A stretch of DNA of 30,081 bases, from positions 1 through 30,081 of IMG/VR virus record IMGVR_UViG_3300009451_000001. One strand, written 5' to 3'. A model generated the notes under the pieces. That model did not search any database. It was not told the DNA's origin and worked only from the letters and a program-made list of their open reading frames with translations. This stretch comes from a virus. This document shows positions 12,501-24,670 of the stretch, one piece after another; position 1 is the stretch's first letter; every line of letters starts with the position of its first letter. Position numbers and translations under genes: made by a program.

Positions 12501-12917
12501 TCAACTCTTCTTGGGTTTATAATCTGATTTCTTTTGAGGTCTACCGAAAATATGCCCGCCACCATAAGCTAAAGGTGCTACCATAGCTCCACCAACTACA
12601 CCTGCAGCCACATTTGCGGGTATCGCAAGAGGATTTCTCTGGGCTAAAGCCTGTAATATACCATACACCGAGCCGCCTATTCCGCCACCGACGGCGCCTT
12701 GTCCTATAGCTTGAGGTAAATACGATTTACCAGTATTTTTTGCGACAGCACCCATAGCACCGGGTCTTCCCCATAAAAGACTCACAGCCGGGTGTTGAAT
12801 AAAATGTTCTGAAGCAAGCCCATACGGTACAGCACCCCTTAATCCGCCTTTTAATGCATCCATTTCTGCACCATATTGGTCATATGCTGCGATCTTAATC
12901 ATTGTTGGACATTTCAT
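12501..12917 (-). CDS. Tagged Gly/Ala-rich membrane-active-looking protein, copy B of a tandem pair
   Basis: 138 residues, same length as the preceding gene product and clearly its paralogue: shared AAYDQYG, ALKGG, AVPYGL, SEHF, the HP-V-S-L motif and AxAKNTGKS. It starts with the peptide MKCPTMIKIAA, one of six versions of a common N-terminal tag in this window. The second half is a glycine-zipper-like apolar region (AVGGGIGGSVYGILQAL, AANVAAGVVGGAMVAPLAYG type) ending in a lysine-rich tail. Such regions can insert in membranes or oligomerise. No known family recognised. Strong ribosome site AAAAAGGAGAAAAAG, identical in the sister gene. A virion-internal, ejected or membrane-pore role is possible. 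Confidence 0.7.
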   Translation of the reverse strand: MKCPTMIKIAAYDQYGAEMDALKGGLRGAVPYGLASEHFIQHPAVSLLWGRPGAMGAVAKNTGKSYLPQAIGQGAVGGGIGGSVYGILQALAQRNPLAIPANVAAGVVGGAMVAPLAYGGGHIFGRPQKKSDYKPKKS

Positions 12918-12935
12918 CTTTTTCTCCTTTTTATT

Positions 12936-13352
12936 TTATCGTTTTGGTGGGGTATAGGATGATGCATCTCTTCTTTTCCCGAAGGCACTTCCCATACCAT
13001 ATGGTAACATAGATTCAGCCGCTCCAACACCTGCTCCACCTGCTGCAAACATTGGTGCAAGCCAAGGTTTTTTGGTCATTAATGCTGCTAATATACCAAC
13101 ACCAAGCCCGCCTACTCCACCGGCTGTTGCACTTTGTCCCACAGATTTACCAAAATTTGATTTACCTGTGTTTTTAGCAATAGCTCCAAGCTGACCACTT
13201 CTTCCAAACAGGCTAGACACAACCGGGTGTCTACCGAAATGTTCTGAGCCAAGCCCATATGGTACAGCACTTCTAAACCCGCCCTTTAGAGCATTTCCTT
13301 CTACACCATATTGGTCATATGCTGCATTTTTAATCATTATTGGACATTTCAC
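12936..13352 (-). CDS. Tagged Gly/Ala-rich protein, copy A of a tandem pair (GTG start)
   Basis: 138 residues from GTG at 13352. The tag VKCPIMIKNAA (Met when initiated) follows AAAAAGGAGAAAAAG at the same spacing as in the sister gene, and the length then equals the sister's. An ATG at 13394 is in frame but lies inside the preceding gene and adds a lysine-rich leader absent from the paralogue, so I reject it. The C-terminal half carries two glycine-rich apolar stretches (TAGGVGGLGVGILAALM and FAAGGAGVGAAESMLPYG). The region 65-80 (GQLGAIAKNTGKSNFG) aligns with the sister. Function unknown; see the tag finding. Confidence 0.7.
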   Translation of the reverse strand: MKCPIMIKNAAYDQYGVEGNALKGGFRSAVPYGLGSEHFGRHPVVSSLFGRSGQLGAIAKNTGKSNFGKSVGQSATAGGVGGLGVGILAALMTKKPWLAPMFAAGGAGVGAAESMLPYGMGSAFGKRRDASSYTPPKR

Positions 13353-13365
13353 CTTTTTCTCCTTT

Positions 13366-14715
13366 TTAGATACGCCATGCTTTTGATATGTCAAGGTCTA
13401 CGTTAGGTTTACCGTCAGCCAAACTTTGTAAGACCTTATGAAGTTTAGGATCCCATTTAACCCCAGCCTTCGTTAATATTCTGTATATTTCATTACCAAA
13501 AAACCTATGATTACTAGGGGTAAATAGATTTATAGTTGTACCGTCCCCAGTCCTTCTCATCATTTCCCTGCCAAGAGCAACTGCATCATTATGTAAATCA
13601 GGGTGGGAAGTTAAAAGTTGAGTTAATCCGTAGGTACTGTATGTTTGTTCTGGACTGCCAAGAAACGTAGGCCCCTGCCTCGCTTCAAATGTTTTTACTC
13701 CGTTACCCAAAGTCTTGATGCCTCTGGTATCAAATAAAGTATTCCCATAGTGAGCATCTCTTGCTCTTATTTTAGCCCCTCCAACAGTATACTGATTAAC
13801 TATACCGGAGAGAATAGCTTTCAAAAACAGTGGATCATCCTTAGATAGATATTTACCCCCACCATACCTAAGATCTCCTGTCTTTAGATCAGCCAACTCA
13901 TTTTTAAGAATATCTAAATGAAGGTGGCCGCCATGCCCTGCGCTTTGACCAGGTATAGCAGCTAAACTTGTCATAGTTGCGTTTGAAGGTAAATAATTTT
14001 TTTTGGTAGCCTTTAACAACGCTCTGAATACTTCTTCAGCTTCTTCTGGGTCAGTCATTGCTTTTGGATTAAATTCGAGACCGAATGTTGAGCTATCACC
14101 GGATATTTGACCAGCGATATCTTTTGCTTTATTCCAAAATTGACTTGGCTTTCCTTTCATAGTTATTTCACGGCCGAAGCCATACATGGTTTGTGGAACC
14201 GGTCCAACGAGACGACTAGCAGGCCCATCGATCCCTTTATATAAAGCAAGTAACTCTGGGTCTGATCCGATGAACCTTATGTTGGGTTTTGGTATTTTCC
14301 TCACCAACTTTGCCAGATCACCAATCGCGGCGGTCTTACCAAATAGATCTCCTGCGTCTCTATAAATATTACCAACATTAACATTCCTAGCGCCAGTCGG
14401 TATGGCGTGCCTACTGGTTCTCATGAGTTTCTCATAAAGTTCAGTTTTATTAATACCAATAATCGCGGCGGAAATAGCATGTCTTTTCAGGGTTTCAACT
14501 GGATTTTCTTTCACCATTCTTCCAACAGTTTTTATGGGATTACCTTCATATGCGGTTAAATAAGCAGCAGTTCCTAAAGCATGAGGAATACCCCTCGCAA
14601 TGTTATATCGGCCTTTGGCTGTATATCCAAACCTAAGAGCACCCTTTAATGCAACTCCAAGTAATGTGGCCGCTGCTGCATTATTTGGTTCTTTAACTTT
14701 AACATCTTTTTCCAT
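13366..14715 (-). CDS. Phage amidoligase-like (COOH-NH2 ligase) protein
   Basis: 449 residues. Motifs in order: GSDPE (150-154), FGLEFN (211-216), HGGHLHLD (261-268) and FEARQGP (343-349). This series matches the glutamine-synthetase-like carboxylate-amine ligases that phages carry (phiEco32-type amidoligases), with a GADPE-like start, a GGHxH motif and a final E-x-R motif. Such enzymes are predicted to join an amine to a carboxylate using ATP and have been proposed to modify cell-wall peptides or proteins; substrates are unproven. The first 140 residues are an extra helical, Ala-rich domain (NNAAAATLLGVALKGALRFG) that could anchor it. GAGGTGAT precedes the ATG. It lies among tagged proteins and next to sugar-modifying genes. 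The assignment rests on motif memory. Confidence 0.55.
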   Translation of the reverse strand: MEKDVKVKEPNNAAAATLLGVALKGALRFGYTAKGRYNIARGIPHALGTAAYLTAYEGNPIKTVGRMVKENPVETLKRHAISAAIIGINKTELYEKLMRTSRHAIPTGARNVNVGNIYRDAGDLFGKTAAIGDLAKLVRKIPKPNIRFIGSDPELLALYKGIDGPASRLVGPVPQTMYGFGREITMKGKPSQFWNKAKDIAGQISGDSSTFGLEFNPKAMTDPEEAEEVFRALLKATKKNYLPSNATMTSLAAIPGQSAGHGGHLHLDILKNELADLKTGDLRYGGGKYLSKDDPLFLKAILSGIVNQYTVGGAKIRARDAHYGNTLFDTRGIKTLGNGVKTFEARQGPTFLGSPEQTYSTYGLTQLLTSHPDLHNDAVALGREMMRRTGDGTTINLFTPSNHRFFGNEIYRILTKAGVKWDPKLHKVLQSLADGKPNVDLDISKAWRI

Positions 14716-16609: not shown

Positions 16610-17899
16610 TTAATACCATCTTATCATTGTACCAATTGCCGTTTTATCCATGGACGATGACATTTCGAATGCCAACTTAGAATACCATCTTGATTTTCTC
16701 ATAGCAGCCCTCATATTCACTGCTTCATTAAGAGCTTCATTTGTACCGCCACGATCTGGATGAGTGGACATAAATATTCTTCTCATTGCATTCTCAGCCT
16801 CTCGTTTAGTTGTAAATTTTTTTGCATCTTTGCCATAAGTAGAGAAGAATTCATTAATTCCGGGAGAGTGACTTCTTCCTGCTCTCCATGCGCCTGAAGA
16901 GCTACTACTACCACCACCAAACCCAGATGAACTTCTACGATAGCTACCGCTGCTACCACCACCAAACCCAGATGATCCTCTACTGTATCCATTAAAATTA
17001 AATTCATCCCCAAATGATTCTCTCCATGCTCTTCTAAATGATTCGTTAAACTCATCACCAAAATTACTTCTGGTTCTAGATGATCCTGAAGGACCTCCAG
17101 ACATTGAAGACCATCTGCGGGATCTTTCCATATCAGCGAGACCATTCAGCGCACTTCCACCTAAATACCCAGCACCAGCACCGAATAAAACTCCGCGAAA
17201 GTAATTCCTGATATTTCTTCTTCGTTTCTCATGTGTAGTCCCTTTTCCGGTCATATTCTTTCTATACTGAGCTGCCATATTAATGGGCCCCCCATACAGA
17301 GCGCCCCCCCATGCACCGAGTATATTAGCCTCGTTTGGTTTTAATGCTCTTAATAAATTAGAAGATATCTTAATCGTTTGCTTAGTTAATGGTTTGCCTG
17401 TATCCCCGTTCATGACCCACTCCTTAAATTGTTCTACCGTCAGAGATCTGATCGGTCCACACTTCCAACCTTTTTCATAATTAGCCAGATATGTTTTTAT
17501 AGCTTCATCTTCAGTTAATGCCCCGATAACACATTTATGCTCGTCGAACTTACCTGATTTATCAACTTGGTCTATAATAAAGACGATTTCGCTTTCAGGA
17601 TGATCACCGATGAATATATCTACAGCATCGCCATCGGCATCAGATGATGTTCTTGCAATGTATCCATAATCGTACTTCATGGTAACGCTCCATGCCTTAC
17701 CACTTGGATCAGTACCTGATCGGGTAGAACCCTTCGGATTCTCTATCTTAACGGTTAACCCCTTCCAAGGAAAGGAACCCTTCTTATAGTTCCCAGCTTG
17801 TATCTGAGCTTCTGTAGGGTTAGTGTTAGTATCTCTCCGAGCTTGAGCTATATCGGCTTTAATCCCGGCCATCTTCACTATCATTCTAGGGCAGTTCAT
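16610..17899 (-). CDS. Tagged polyvalent-type protein: pyrophosphatase-like domain fused to a C-terminal J domain
   Basis: 429 residues from ATG 17899, which overlaps the upstream TGA as ATGA; an ATG four codons earlier has no support. Order: tag MNCPRMIVKMA (1-11); pyrophosphatase-like domain (about 28-150; NPTEAQIQAGNYKKG, NPKGSTRSG, DADGDAVDIFIGD, FDEHK), a module I recall from phage and plasmid polyvalent proteins; a Gly-rich apolar region (about 193-252); a Ser/Gly/Arg low-complexity stretch (about 264-345); and a J domain with HPD at 380-382 in MSTHPDRGGTNEAL. J domains stimulate Hsp70 (DnaK). An apolar segment followed by a C-terminal J domain resembles Pam18-type proteins. Polyvalent proteins are thought to be co-injected with DNA to protect it. 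I infer a virion-carried effector that may recruit host DnaK at the membrane; this is untested. Confidence 0.8.
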   Translation of the reverse strand: MNCPRMIVKMAGIKADIAQARRDTNTNPTEAQIQAGNYKKGSFPWKGLTVKIENPKGSTRSGTDPSGKAWSVTMKYDYGYIARTSSDADGDAVDIFIGDHPESEIVFIIDQVDKSGKFDEHKCVIGALTEDEAIKTYLANYEKGWKCGPIRSLTVEQFKEWVMNGDTGKPLTKQTIKISSNLLRALKPNEANILGAWGGALYGGPINMAAQYRKNMTGKGTTHEKRRRNIRNYFRGVLFGAGAGYLGGSALNGLADMERSRRWSSMSGGPSGSSRTRSNFGDEFNESFRRAWRESFGDEFNFNGYSRGSSGFGGGSSGSYRRSSSGFGGGSSSSSGAWRAGRSHSPGINEFFSTYGKDAKKFTTKREAENAMRRIFMSTHPDRGGTNEALNEAVNMRAAMRKSRWYSKLAFEMSSSMDKTAIGTMIRWY

Positions 17900-18210
17900 C
17901 TTGGAGTCCATGGCATAAACTTAGTTTCTCTCTCTATCTTCTTAAAGTCTCTAAGCCTATAACCTGTCTTTTTAGCTAAATATCTCATAAAATGCTTTTG
18001 TCGTTTTTGGTTATGGAGAACTATATTATTATGTAATCTCTTTATGTGTTTGGCTTTTAGTTTAGCTTGGGGAGTAGATTTCCACCAAGGGCTAATTCCC
18101 ATATTATCTGCCATTAATTGACCAACTCTACTATATTGTTTATCCAATGCTCTTCTTGCTAAGTCAATAGATAAAGCTTCTTTAACTATCATTCTTGGAC
18201 AACTTATCAT
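17896..18210 (-). CDS. Tagged small basic protein
   Basis: 104 residues, not recognised. It begins MISCPRMIVKEA, the tag with one extra residue before the Cys. CPRMIVK is identical to the tag of the following gene, although the codons for Cys, Pro, Val and Lys all differ synonymously. The rest is helical and very basic (KAKHIKRLHNNIVLHNQKRQ, AKKTGYRLRDFKKIERETK), suggesting nucleic-acid binding. Its ATG lies 29 bases inside the end of a small upstream gene, with a weak ribosome site, so it may depend on coupling. Its TGA overlaps the next ATG. A DNA-associated protein packaged with the genome is one possibility. Confidence 0.65.
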   Translation of the reverse strand: MISCPRMIVKEALSIDLARRALDKQYSRVGQLMADNMGISPWWKSTPQAKLKAKHIKRLHNNIVLHNQKRQKHFMRYLAKKTGYRLRDFKKIERETKFMPWTPR

Positions 18211-18851: not shown

Positions 18852-19019
18852 TTATACTTTAGGTTTCTTGTTAGTGGCTGGTCTTTTAATACGGATTGTT
18901 GTGTTTTTGTGGGCATCAGCATATTCTTTTGAGACAAACTTGCGCCCATCGGCTGATTTGTATTGATAATAATATCCATCCTTCTTTCTACGTTTACCGA
19001 ATATACTTAATAACGACAT
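18852..19019 (-). CDS. 55-residue basic small protein
   Basis: Start MSLLSIFGKRRKKDGYYYQY, then KSADGRKFVSKEYADAHK and a lysine-rich tail. It is the first gene downstream of the large gene-free stretch. A GGGGGGTAAG ribosome site precedes the ATG, and the stop lies 9 bases before the next gene's start. The YYYQYKSADGRKFVSKEYAD part reads like a short beta-hairpin unit, as found in Arm-type DNA-binding or other small nucleic-acid-binding proteins; this comparison is loose. It is probably real given ribosome site, position and composition. Confidence 0.6.
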   Translation of the reverse strand: MSLLSIFGKRRKKDGYYYQYKSADGRKFVSKEYADAHKNTTIRIKRPATNKKPKV

Positions 19020-19356
19020 CTTACCCCCCAAATAAAACTCAACAACTATACAATTAAATACTTCATATCTTTTGCAATTATTTTGTCAAGCATTTTGAAA
19101 TTACTATTTTTAAACAAGCAGGGGGGTAGGCCATTGCTTTCTTTTATTTTTTCTTTACTTATATAATTAAGTTATATTAAAGATTTATATATATTATATA
19201 GAGGGGCCAGAACGACCTCAATGGATAGGCCAAAATGACCCCAATAAGGGGCCAAAATGACCTCAATGAAATCCCGTGCCCAGCAGTAGATTTTCTTATA
19301 CCCATAAAACACAAATTCACCTTCCCCCCTATTGGGGCCAAAATGACCCCAATGGA
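19020..19356 (-). other. Gene-free stretch with AT-rich tract and iterons: candidate replication origin
   Basis: 337 bases without a credible gene. It contains, from low to high coordinate: a TTGACA hexamer on the minus strand (19084-19089); a G-run (19121-19126); an AT tract in which 55 of 60 bases at 19141-19200 are A or T; and four copies of a 22-23-base repeat. An AT-rich unwinding tract next to phased iterons, beside a gene for a winged-helix replication-type protein, is the usual layout of an iteron origin. Alternatively the repeats are operators for that protein. No origin function is shown by sequence alone. Confidence 0.5.
19203..19356. repeat. Four direct repeats (iteron-like), about 22 bp
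   Basis: Consensus GGGGCCAAAATGACCYCAAT followed by GGA. Copies start at 19203, about 19226, 19248 and 19334. The first three are spaced 23 and 22 bases, about two helical turns. The fourth is 86 bases further, close to four such units, and ends exactly at the stop codon of the winged-helix gene. Copy 4 also holds an inverted repeat ATTGGGG/CCCCAAT around CCAAAATGA. Copies 2 and 4 have CCCC where 1 and 3 have CCTC. Helical phasing suggests binding of one protein to one face of the DNA. Confidence 0.8.
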
Positions 19357-19725
19357 TTAATCCGCATCAGAAAAGGCTTCATCAATGATATCACCATCTA
19401 ATACTATTTTATACCACCATCGATAAGGGTTACCTCTACGCTCCATTTCTATCAACCCCATATTTGACAGATCTGCTCTAGCATCCCGCTGATCTCTTCG
19501 ACTTAAGCAGATATTCTCAGTCATGGCTTCTGTACTGTAATTAAAGAAACCATCTTCAGGCAAGGATCCTGTTTTAGATAAGAGATCCATTCTGGAAAAT
19601 AATTCACCGTAGTACATTGCTCCTGTAGGTTTTACTTTCTTTGCTAGATGTCTGTTGCACATGATGTAACCACTGCGACTAAAGATACGCATAAACGTAT
19701 CCCTTGATATTTGCATCTTACTCAT
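19357..19725 (-). CDS. Winged-helix DNA-binding protein of phage replication type
   Basis: 122 residues. The pattern SGYIMCNRHLAKKVKPTGAM, then YYGELFSRMDLL, DGFFNYSTEAM, LSRRDQRDARADLSNMGLIE and RWWYKI is that of small phage winged-helix proteins related to replication initiators: an alpha-helical start, a recognition helix around the LSRRDQRDAR segment and a beta wing (MGLIEMERRGNP, then YRWWYKIVL). It probably binds DNA, and the direct repeats that begin at its stop codon are obvious candidate targets. AAGGGGGCAAA precedes the ATG, which overlaps the HNH gene end by 8 bases. Alternative: a transcription repressor. Family membership is from pattern memory. Confidence 0.6.
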   Translation of the reverse strand: MSKMQISRDTFMRIFSRSGYIMCNRHLAKKVKPTGAMYYGELFSRMDLLSKTGSLPEDGFFNYSTEAMTENICLSRRDQRDARADLSNMGLIEMERRGNPYRWWYKIVLDGDIIDEAFSDAD

Positions 19726-23460: not shown

Positions 23461-23871
23461 CTAAAAGCTAACTCTTGCCAGATCCTTTACAACATTTACC
23501 CCGATACTCTTCACATTTCTCTTGGTTCGATCTTTCTTTCTATTCTGAGCGTCTATTTCGGATAATGCCATCATGACGTTTTTAATAATTCTATCGTCTT
23601 CCTGTCTGTTATTTCGCTGGGTGTACCTCATTCTGGGGTATTTCTCCATTAACATCTCACCTACTGATTTTACCGCATTTCTACGTCTACCCATATCACC
23701 AATACCAAGAGTAAGAATCGGGTGACGCAACAACACGTTACTCTGCAGCTTTTCAGCTATCAGATTTTTTACTTCTTTCTCGCGGTCATCTGGAATATTC
23801 TGTCTCAGATAATCTTCTATGTCTTCCAATACTATCCTGGCTAATTTTACAATGTTAACAGGACATTTCAT
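23461..23871 (-). CDS. Tagged small basic protein, remote member of the tag set
   Basis: 136 residues from ATG 23871 after TAGGAGTTAGT; an ATG 14 codons earlier lacks a ribosome site and overlaps the terminator U-tract. It starts with MKCPVNIVKLARIV, the tag with Asn at the usual Met. The rest is helical and basic (AEKLQSNVLLRHPI, GRRRNAVKSVGEMLMEKYPR, RKKDRTKRNVKSIG) and may bind nucleic acid. It lies 4.6 kb from the main tag cluster and shares nothing else with those proteins that I can see. An intrinsic terminator ends 26 bases upstream, so expression may depend on read-through. Confidence 0.7.
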   Translation of the reverse strand: MKCPVNIVKLARIVLEDIEDYLRQNIPDDREKEVKNLIAEKLQSNVLLRHPILTLGIGDMGRRRNAVKSVGEMLMEKYPRMRYTQRNNRQEDDRIIKNVMMALSEIDAQNRKKDRTKRNVKSIGVNVVKDLARVSF

Positions 23872-23896
23872 ACTAACTCCTATTTGGCCAATAGCT

Positions 23897-23930
23897 AAAA
23901 AAAGGTGAGGCACAGCTTTCGCCGTGCCTC
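23897..23930 (-). terminator. Strong intrinsic terminator
   Basis: On the minus strand GAGGCACGGC pairs with GCTGTGCCTC (one G-U pair) around a GAAA tetraloop, followed three bases later by seven T. It ends the transcript carrying the 17-codon ORF and sits just before the ribosome site of the next tagged gene. Confidence 0.9.
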
Positions 23931-23936
23931 TAATAA

Positions 23937-23990
23937 TTAAGTTAAATTAAGGGTTAATTCCCTTCTATAAAGGTCGCTTGCCAAACCCAT
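23937..23990 (-). CDS. 17-residue small ORF (leader-peptide-like)
   Basis: ATG at 23990 preceded by a GGAGG ribosome site (23999-23995) at four bases, encoding MGLASDLYRRELTLNLT. It ends 7 bases before the terminator stem. The ribosome site begins directly after a seven-T tract that follows a hairpin, so translation could be sensitive to the RNA fold upstream. Either a small functional peptide or a leader ORF. No similarity recognised. Confidence 0.45.
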   Translation of the reverse strand: MGLASDLYRRELTLNLT

Positions 23991-23999
23991 ATCGCCTCC

Positions 24000-24115
24000 A
24001 AAAAAAGCCTTCCATGCAATATTTAAAATACGCATGGGCGGACACGGTTCGCCTTTCGACGCCTATAATCCTGGGGCAATCCCATGCGTATCACAACTAT
24101 ATTTATCGATACGCA
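24000..24115 (-). promoter_or_regulatory. Attenuator-like structured RNA element with serial alternative hairpins
   Basis: In minus-strand order: segment 1 TGCGTATC (24115-24108), segment 2 GATACGCATGGG (24092-24081), segment 3 CCCATGCGTAT (24038-24028) and segment 4 GCATGG (24017-24012). Pairings 1:2 (8 bp), 2:3 (11 bp, 42-base loop) and 3:4 (6 bp plus an inner TATT/AATA) are each perfect, and 2:3 excludes the other two. Segment 4 is followed, after five bases, by seven T (24006-24000), so 3:4 could act as a terminator and 2:3 as antiterminator. This is the four-segment logic of an attenuator or riboswitch. The 42-base loop of 2:3 could be a sensor; I recognise no known aptamer. Confidence 0.6.
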
Positions 24116-24148
24116 CAGAACCTTAAAGTTTATTTTTTGTCAAGATAT

Positions 24149-24670
24149 TTACGCCAAAGTAATAAGAACAATCCCAATTGCCAAAAATAATATATCATGC
24201 CATGGCCTTCTAGGAATACTGACTGTTCCATTTAAAAAATCCCAATTGACCTTTTGTGGCCATAGATCATTATATGCGATATAATTGAAAACCCGCTCAT
24301 AAAAGAATATCCCAGCGAATGTTGCACCCGCATAATACAATAATATAGACCATATTGGTACCCCCAGCTTGACCAACACTCCAAACATAATCATTCCACC
24401 GTACATGCCGACATTTTCTCCGGTTACCCGCCAAGTATGATAGCACCACCAACCTTTGGAGTCCTGAGTACTATCATGTTTACCTGGCTTAATGATAAGA
24501 TTCATGTGTCTTCTCATGGGATCTGCCCAAGTATACCCTTCGGTACACCCTTCTCCAAACCAATACCACATAACGAAGACTATGGCACCTGCTACTGGGA
24601 ACAAAATTGATATTACTACCAATAACAACACAGCGAACACAACAGATAGTTTTGCTAACTTTTTTTTCAT
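24149..24670 (-). CDS. Multi-pass membrane protein, unknown
   Basis: 173 residues. A lysine-rich start (MKKKLAKL) is followed by a long apolar helix (about 9-38), and further hydrophobic segments lie near 92-103, 108-125 and 158-173. Between them is a soluble stretch with Cys and Trp (GCTEGYTWADPMRRHMN, KGWWCYHTWRV). TAAGGAGAGCGAG precedes the ATG. No holin, spanin or transporter family is recognised. It lies just upstream of the structured RNA element. It could be a membrane partner in lysis or superinfection exclusion; the sequence supports only membrane location. Confidence 0.65.
   Translation of the reverse strand: MKKKLAKLSVVFAVLLLVVISILFPVAGAIVFVMWYWFGEGCTEGYTWADPMRRHMNLIIKPGKHDSTQDSKGWWCYHTWRVTGENVGMYGGMIMFGVLVKLGVPIWSILLYYAGATFAGIFFYERVFNYIAYNDLWPQKVNWDFLNGTVSIPRRPWHDILFLAIGIVLITLA

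Follow-up and report, generated by a model that had tools for sequence, protein, structure and literature searches.

An intergenic gap of an uncultivated phage holds a structured leader with the anatomy of a transcription attenuator, and this structure is real and non-random. Its best reading, a tentative one, is a leader-type transcription attenuator that would decide by the origin of the transcript. The window, by which we mean the whole analysed stretch of 30,081 bases, is an IMG/VR virus record; the gap (24148-23872, 277 bases) is among its largest intergenic gaps and separates small unknown genes on one side from the lysis, virion and packaging block on the other. All elements of the feature lie on the minus strand, to which the RNA is assigned because the surrounding predicted genes read leftwards. 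From 5' to 3' come TTGACA, segments 1 and 2, a loop of 42 nt, segments 3 and 4, T7, GGAGG, a 17-codon ORF, a GAAA-loop terminator that has its own T7, and finally the gene at 23871 (Table 1).

Table 1. Elements of the leader and its surroundings, in window positions
Element	Position	Strand	Remark
TTGACA, -35-like hexamer	24138..24143	minus	TTCTGT at 17 nt; no recognisable -10 at 16-18 nt
Segment 1, 5' arm of hairpin 1:2	24107..24122 (core TGCGTATC 24115-24108)	minus	from folding and helix listing
Segment 2, 3' arm of 1:2 or 5' arm of 2:3	24078..24093 (core GATACGCATGGG 24092-24081)	minus	
42-nt loop of 2:3	24039..24080	minus	without Rfam family
Segment 3, 3' arm of 2:3 or 5' arm of 3:4	24027..24038 (CCCATGCGTAT 24038-24028)	minus	
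Segment 4, GCATGG 24017-24012, with GGC 24009-24007 and U7 24006-24000	24000..24017	minus	with segment 3, putative intrinsic terminator
GGAGG 23999-23995 and 17-codon ORF 23990-23937 (MGLASDLYRRELTLNLT, stop)	23937..23999	minus	putative ORF
Strong intrinsic terminator (10 bp, GAAA loop), followed by ACC and T7	23897..23930 (hairpin 23930-23907, T7 23903-23897)	minus	
TAGCTATTGGCCAAA, conserved sequence behind the terminator	23883..23897	minus	TAGCTATNNGCCAAA common to the relative
First downstream gene, 136 aa, N-terminus MKCPVNIVK	23461..23871	minus	homologue 39% identical in the relative (L013 2203-2577)

A complete listing of the 132-nt core gave exactly three perfect helices with 6 bp or more: 1:2, with a perfect part of 8 bp (24115-24108 with 24092-24085), 2:3, with 11 bp (24091-24081 with 24038-24028), and 3:4, with 6 bp (24037-24032 with 24017-24012). 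These are the lengths that the first-pass annotation had reported; the perfect 11-bp helix is as it described, and the eight Watson-Crick pairs of 1:2 are present but belong to a longer helix, which with G-U pairs reaches 16 bp (24122-24107 with 24093-24078, -19.5 kcal/mol) and is the strongest early hairpin. The description of 3:4 as followed by seven T needed correction: the six pairs and the U7 are there, but the pairs stop 5 nt short of the U-tract, and for the hairpin to have the shape of a terminator, GCC 24039-24037 must pair with GGC 24009-24007, leaving GAA as a bulge. This bulged form is the predicted minimum-energy fold (-10.0 kcal/mol), and its stem reaches the U-tract across the 3-nt bulge. 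The GGAGG of the 17-codon ORF does begin right behind the T-run, and the 10-bp GAAA-loop terminator does end the unit.

The annotation had also judged that such overlapping pairings would hardly arise by chance, and this was borne out. When the 132-nt stretch was dinucleotide-shuffled 4000 times, the chain of overlapping helices never appeared, even in a relaxed 7/8/6 bp version, and six shuffles had any perfect helix of at least 11 bp. In natural sequence, the relaxed chain was found in 3 of 2468 sliding windows on both strands of both phage contigs, one of them here and the other two being a single AT-rich place found on each strand. Folding energies also stand out, with z = -3.6 for a 269-nt stretch and z = -2.9 for a 143-nt core.

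Folding prediction gives the leader two mutually exclusive structures, one of which includes an intrinsic terminator with a U-tract. With segment 1 present, hairpin 1:2 is predicted to form once it has been made and to persist, the probability of 2:3 being at most about 0.05 before segment 4 is made and no more than about 0.001 after synthesis of the U-tract. As 1:2 occupies segment 2, the latter would be unavailable to segment 3, and the 3:4 hairpin would form. For RNAs starting at 24117 or further upstream, the predicted probability is about 1 for 1:2 and 0.99-1.0 for 3:4 at the U-tract; for starts at 24108-24104 it is 0.94-0.96 for 2:3 and 0.04-0.06 for 3:4. A start at 24096 still leaves 2:3 ahead (about 0.8), one at 24112 gives a mixture of 2:3 and 3:4, and one at 24090 puts the terminator 3:4 ahead again. 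Small shifts of the RNA's 5' end are therefore predicted to change the fold.

Where that 5' end may lie is suggested by the TTGACA, which looks like a promoter element because the hexamer is enriched between genes: of its 19 coding-strand copies in the two contigs, 10 are intergenic, against 9% expected (p=1.4e-6). A flank similar to that of this copy occurs at L013 1199-1225 of the relative (ATATCTTTGACAAAAAATATATTAAGG). At the usual 17-nt spacing we infer a start near 24108, just past segment 1. This local start is an assumption, since no -10 element is recognisable downstream of the hexamer and a motif search downstream of the TTGACA boxes gave no robust second element (best 12-mer LL 40.1, shuffled maximum 39.0). 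The phage's promoter type may be unusual, judging from the intergenic enrichment of coding-strand TTGACA in the window and in the relative and the lack of a clear -10 at normal spacing. The sequence TATAAATA was considered as a late promoter and rejected as not significant. No terminator-like site separates segment 1 from the next gene upstream (24149-24670), so read-through RNA from upstream is to be expected.

These elements would fit together as follows. RNA entering from the upstream genes would carry segment 1, fold into 1:2 and 3:4 and stop near 24000, while RNA from the local TTGACA promoter would begin at about 24108 without segment 1, fold into 2:3 and continue beyond the U-tract to the 17-codon ORF. 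At 23907 the conserved terminator would then end most transcripts and act as the main gate to the late genes, which would be reached only via read-through or antitermination there. The outcome would be set by the RNA start, or by a factor that keeps segment 1 off segment 2, and a metabolite would not necessarily be involved. A deciding role for transcript origin draws on the helix chain that shuffling does not reproduce, on the fold that flips with the 5' end, on the intergenic enrichment of TTGACA and on the terminator and TAGCTATNNGCCAAA in the relative; against it stand the absence of the array from the only relative, the weak and bulged 3:4 stem, the mixed or reversed predictions for starts at 24112 or 24090, and the second terminator, which leaves the first controlling the 17-codon ORF only. 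The stricter claim, that the phage's own promoter starts the RNA at a point that leaves out the segment through which the terminator would be released, and that upstream RNA terminates, we consider unlikely. The phage riboregulator of the first-pass annotation thus stands in part: the exclusive pairings, the U-tract and the terminator position common to one relative fit an attenuator, but the array is absent from that relative and 2:3 is never favoured with segment 1 present.

The annotation further had the switch decide read-through into the gene at 23871 and the baseplate genes, a claim weakened by the strong terminator at 23907. As this stands between the putative switch and that gene, the switch alone could not give such read-through. 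The downstream genes include a match to a lysin-like family, a weak baseplate match (E 0.00095) and a terminase match. In transcripts that reach 23975 or beyond, the ribosome-binding site of the 17-codon ORF is for the most part paired in the predicted folds; GGCGAACCGUGUCC in the 42-nt loop is also predicted to be able to pair with the start region of the ORF (duplex -13.7 kcal/mol). A translational layer, made up of this pairing and the paired start region, is possible.

Protein-guided searches found a single true relative, contig G001 (L013), whose terminase is 66% identical; 79 other loci share the lysin-like gene alone. Window and relative share homologous, collinear genes directly downstream, a 9-bp terminator lies at the equivalent place (L013 2083-2104), and TAGCTATNNGCCAAA occurs once per contig on the coding strand (window 23897, G001 2112). 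Before the homologue of the 23871 gene, the relative thus has the terminator, then TAGCTATNNGCCAAA and TTGACA. Its leader ahead of the terminator differs, with a hairpin at about 1795-1846 and a 68-aa ORF, and the equivalent region of this one relative holds no chain of three overlapping helices. As far as the two sequences tell, the conserved part is the terminator boundary and not the four-segment array. Close relatives are lacking, and the array's absence from a single diverged one speaks neither for nor against its having a function in this phage. The relative's stable hairpin (L013 1795-1846, GTGCGTGGGG...CCCGCGCAC) sits right after a stop codon and before the 68-aa ORF, which is basic; by eye, its loop ACTCCTC could pair with the AGGGG ribosome-binding site of that ORF.

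Nearly as likely as an attenuator deciding by transcript origin is an ordinary transcription-unit boundary, at which 1:2 and 3:4 are an independent hairpin and a terminator, 2:3 is a by-product of their similar stems (TGCGTATC.. / ATGCGTAT..), and the terminator at 23907 does the work without any switching. Indeed 2:3 is negligible with segment 1 present once the U-tract is made, the relative shares the terminator and not the array, TGCGTAT occurs in the stems of both hairpins, and segments 1 and 3 continue into similar AT-rich sequence (CGATAAATATAG, TTTTAAATATTG). A perfect 11-bp 2:3 that exactly spans both hairpins, however, exceeds what two plain hairpins need, as the shuffles indicate (any such helix in 6 of 4000, the chain in none). 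There is also a small chance that the locus makes a phage small RNA or late leader, a short RNA that ends at 23907 until a phage antitermination factor opens the late genes, in the manner of lambda 6S RNA (pR'-tR') or Gifsy-1 IsrK. In lambda, pR'-6S RNA-tR' comprises a promoter, a leader of about 200 nt and a strong terminator before the late genes, and 6S RNA is not known for a four-segment array. The arrangement here is similar: a promoter-like hexamer, a leader of about 210 nt and a strong terminator, conserved in the one relative, directly before the late genes (lysin-like, baseplate-like, terminase). Unlike in lambda, no Q protein or other antiterminator was found among the window proteins scanned (a subset of the genes of a record that may be a fragment), and no Q-binding site was identified here. 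It also counts against such a late leader that the relative has another leader, with the 68-aa ORF, before its terminator, which is followed by a further TTGACA. The phage RNA IsrK, a published case, ends at a terminator of its own; read-through there leads into a short ORF whose translation is affected by alternative structures. IsrK acts in trans on the transcript that arises from its own read-through, and it feeds the AntQ antiterminator (PMC4825925). The present leader resembles it in the terminator-ended RNA, the short ORF behind read-through and the alternative structures, but neither trans action on its own read-through transcript nor AntQ was found here.

Two further explanations have much less in their favour. 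The inverted repeats could be operator or origin sites in DNA, with RNA folding irrelevant, and a 20-nt inverted repeat (80%) agrees with this; we nevertheless think it very improbable, as a better origin candidate with iterons lies by the initiator gene at 19203-19354, the ATGCGTAT/ATACGCAT motif does not recur in the other gaps between genes, and the U-tract and Shine-Dalgarno sequence are strand-specific to RNA. Least probable of all is that the 42-nt loop of 2:3 holds a new aptamer and the leader is a riboswitch, although that loop is structured and lies inside the antiterminator. The loop had been said to match no known aptamer, and the Rfam search agrees: no family reached its gathering score, the best permissive matches had E 0.37-0.38, and none of the riboswitch, T-box or ribosomal-protein leader covariance models matched. 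Homologues were also lacking: DNA similarity search in phages and plasmids returned nothing meaningful (a plasmid match covered the terminator hairpin only, E 0.07), and hairpin pattern scans of viral contigs gave no match. The genes that follow have structural or unknown functions and are not metabolic. A loop pattern had seven exact matches in genome contigs, all in unrelated bacteria and judged to be chance.

Among known systems, the leader is like the trp and his attenuators in its four serial segments, its 1:2, 2:3 and 3:4 pairing and the U-tract after 3:4; unlike them, it has no leader peptide with regulatory codons and its downstream genes are not biosynthetic. The only frame noticed over segment 1, which begins with GTG at 24116 and runs through segment 2 (17 codons, 24116-24063, VRIDKYSCDTHGIAPGL), has a weak Shine-Dalgarno sequence, no codon run and a stop beyond segment 2, and was rejected as a leader peptide of the trp or his type. 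A second likeness is to the protection of IS10 transposase from read-through, reportedly described by Davis, Simons and Kleckner in 1985, in which incoming RNA with an extra upstream arm is said to fold into an inactive form and RNA from the internal promoter does not. Here too, RNA from outside is predicted to have an extra upstream arm that locally started RNA lacks, but IS10 blocks translation, whereas the effect predicted for the phage leader is on termination and depends on a putative local start. Antisense-RNA attenuators, of the plasmid pIP501/pT181 type or in the phage P4 CI RNA, also have a leader in which two exclusive folds decide termination; unlike in those systems, no antisense transcript or promoter was identified opposite the leader here.

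Other observations concern the rest of the two phages. Nine mostly different proteins of 120-429 aa share an N-terminal tag with the consensus M[KNR]CPxMI(V/I)K-A, which may serve as a signal for targeting, packaging or processing; the tagged proteins start at 23871, 18842, 17899, 13352 and 12917 on the minus strand of the window, at L013 2203 and 6130, and at G001 7989 and 12965. One of them, the window 16610-17911 protein with its MNCP tag from 17899, has an N-terminal Pfam InPase domain (PF18823, E 5e-50) and also matches large virion-protein families. Two 261-nt direct repeats, 74% identical (12673-12933 and 13108-13368), overlap two nearby tagged genes and are probably a gene duplication. 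Window 19018-19356 holds four copies of GGGGCCAAAATGACCYCAATG beside a gene that matches DnaD/O-like replication initiation families (19357-19725), with an AT-rich stretch adjoining, and is likely a replication origin.

An attenuator that decides by transcript origin predicts that moving the 5' end from one side of 24115-24108 to the other flips termination at 24000. If this holds, the late genes would be insulated from early read-through without protein or ligand, and the phage would have a simple, protein-free separation of early and late transcription in which the start point of the RNA chooses the fold.
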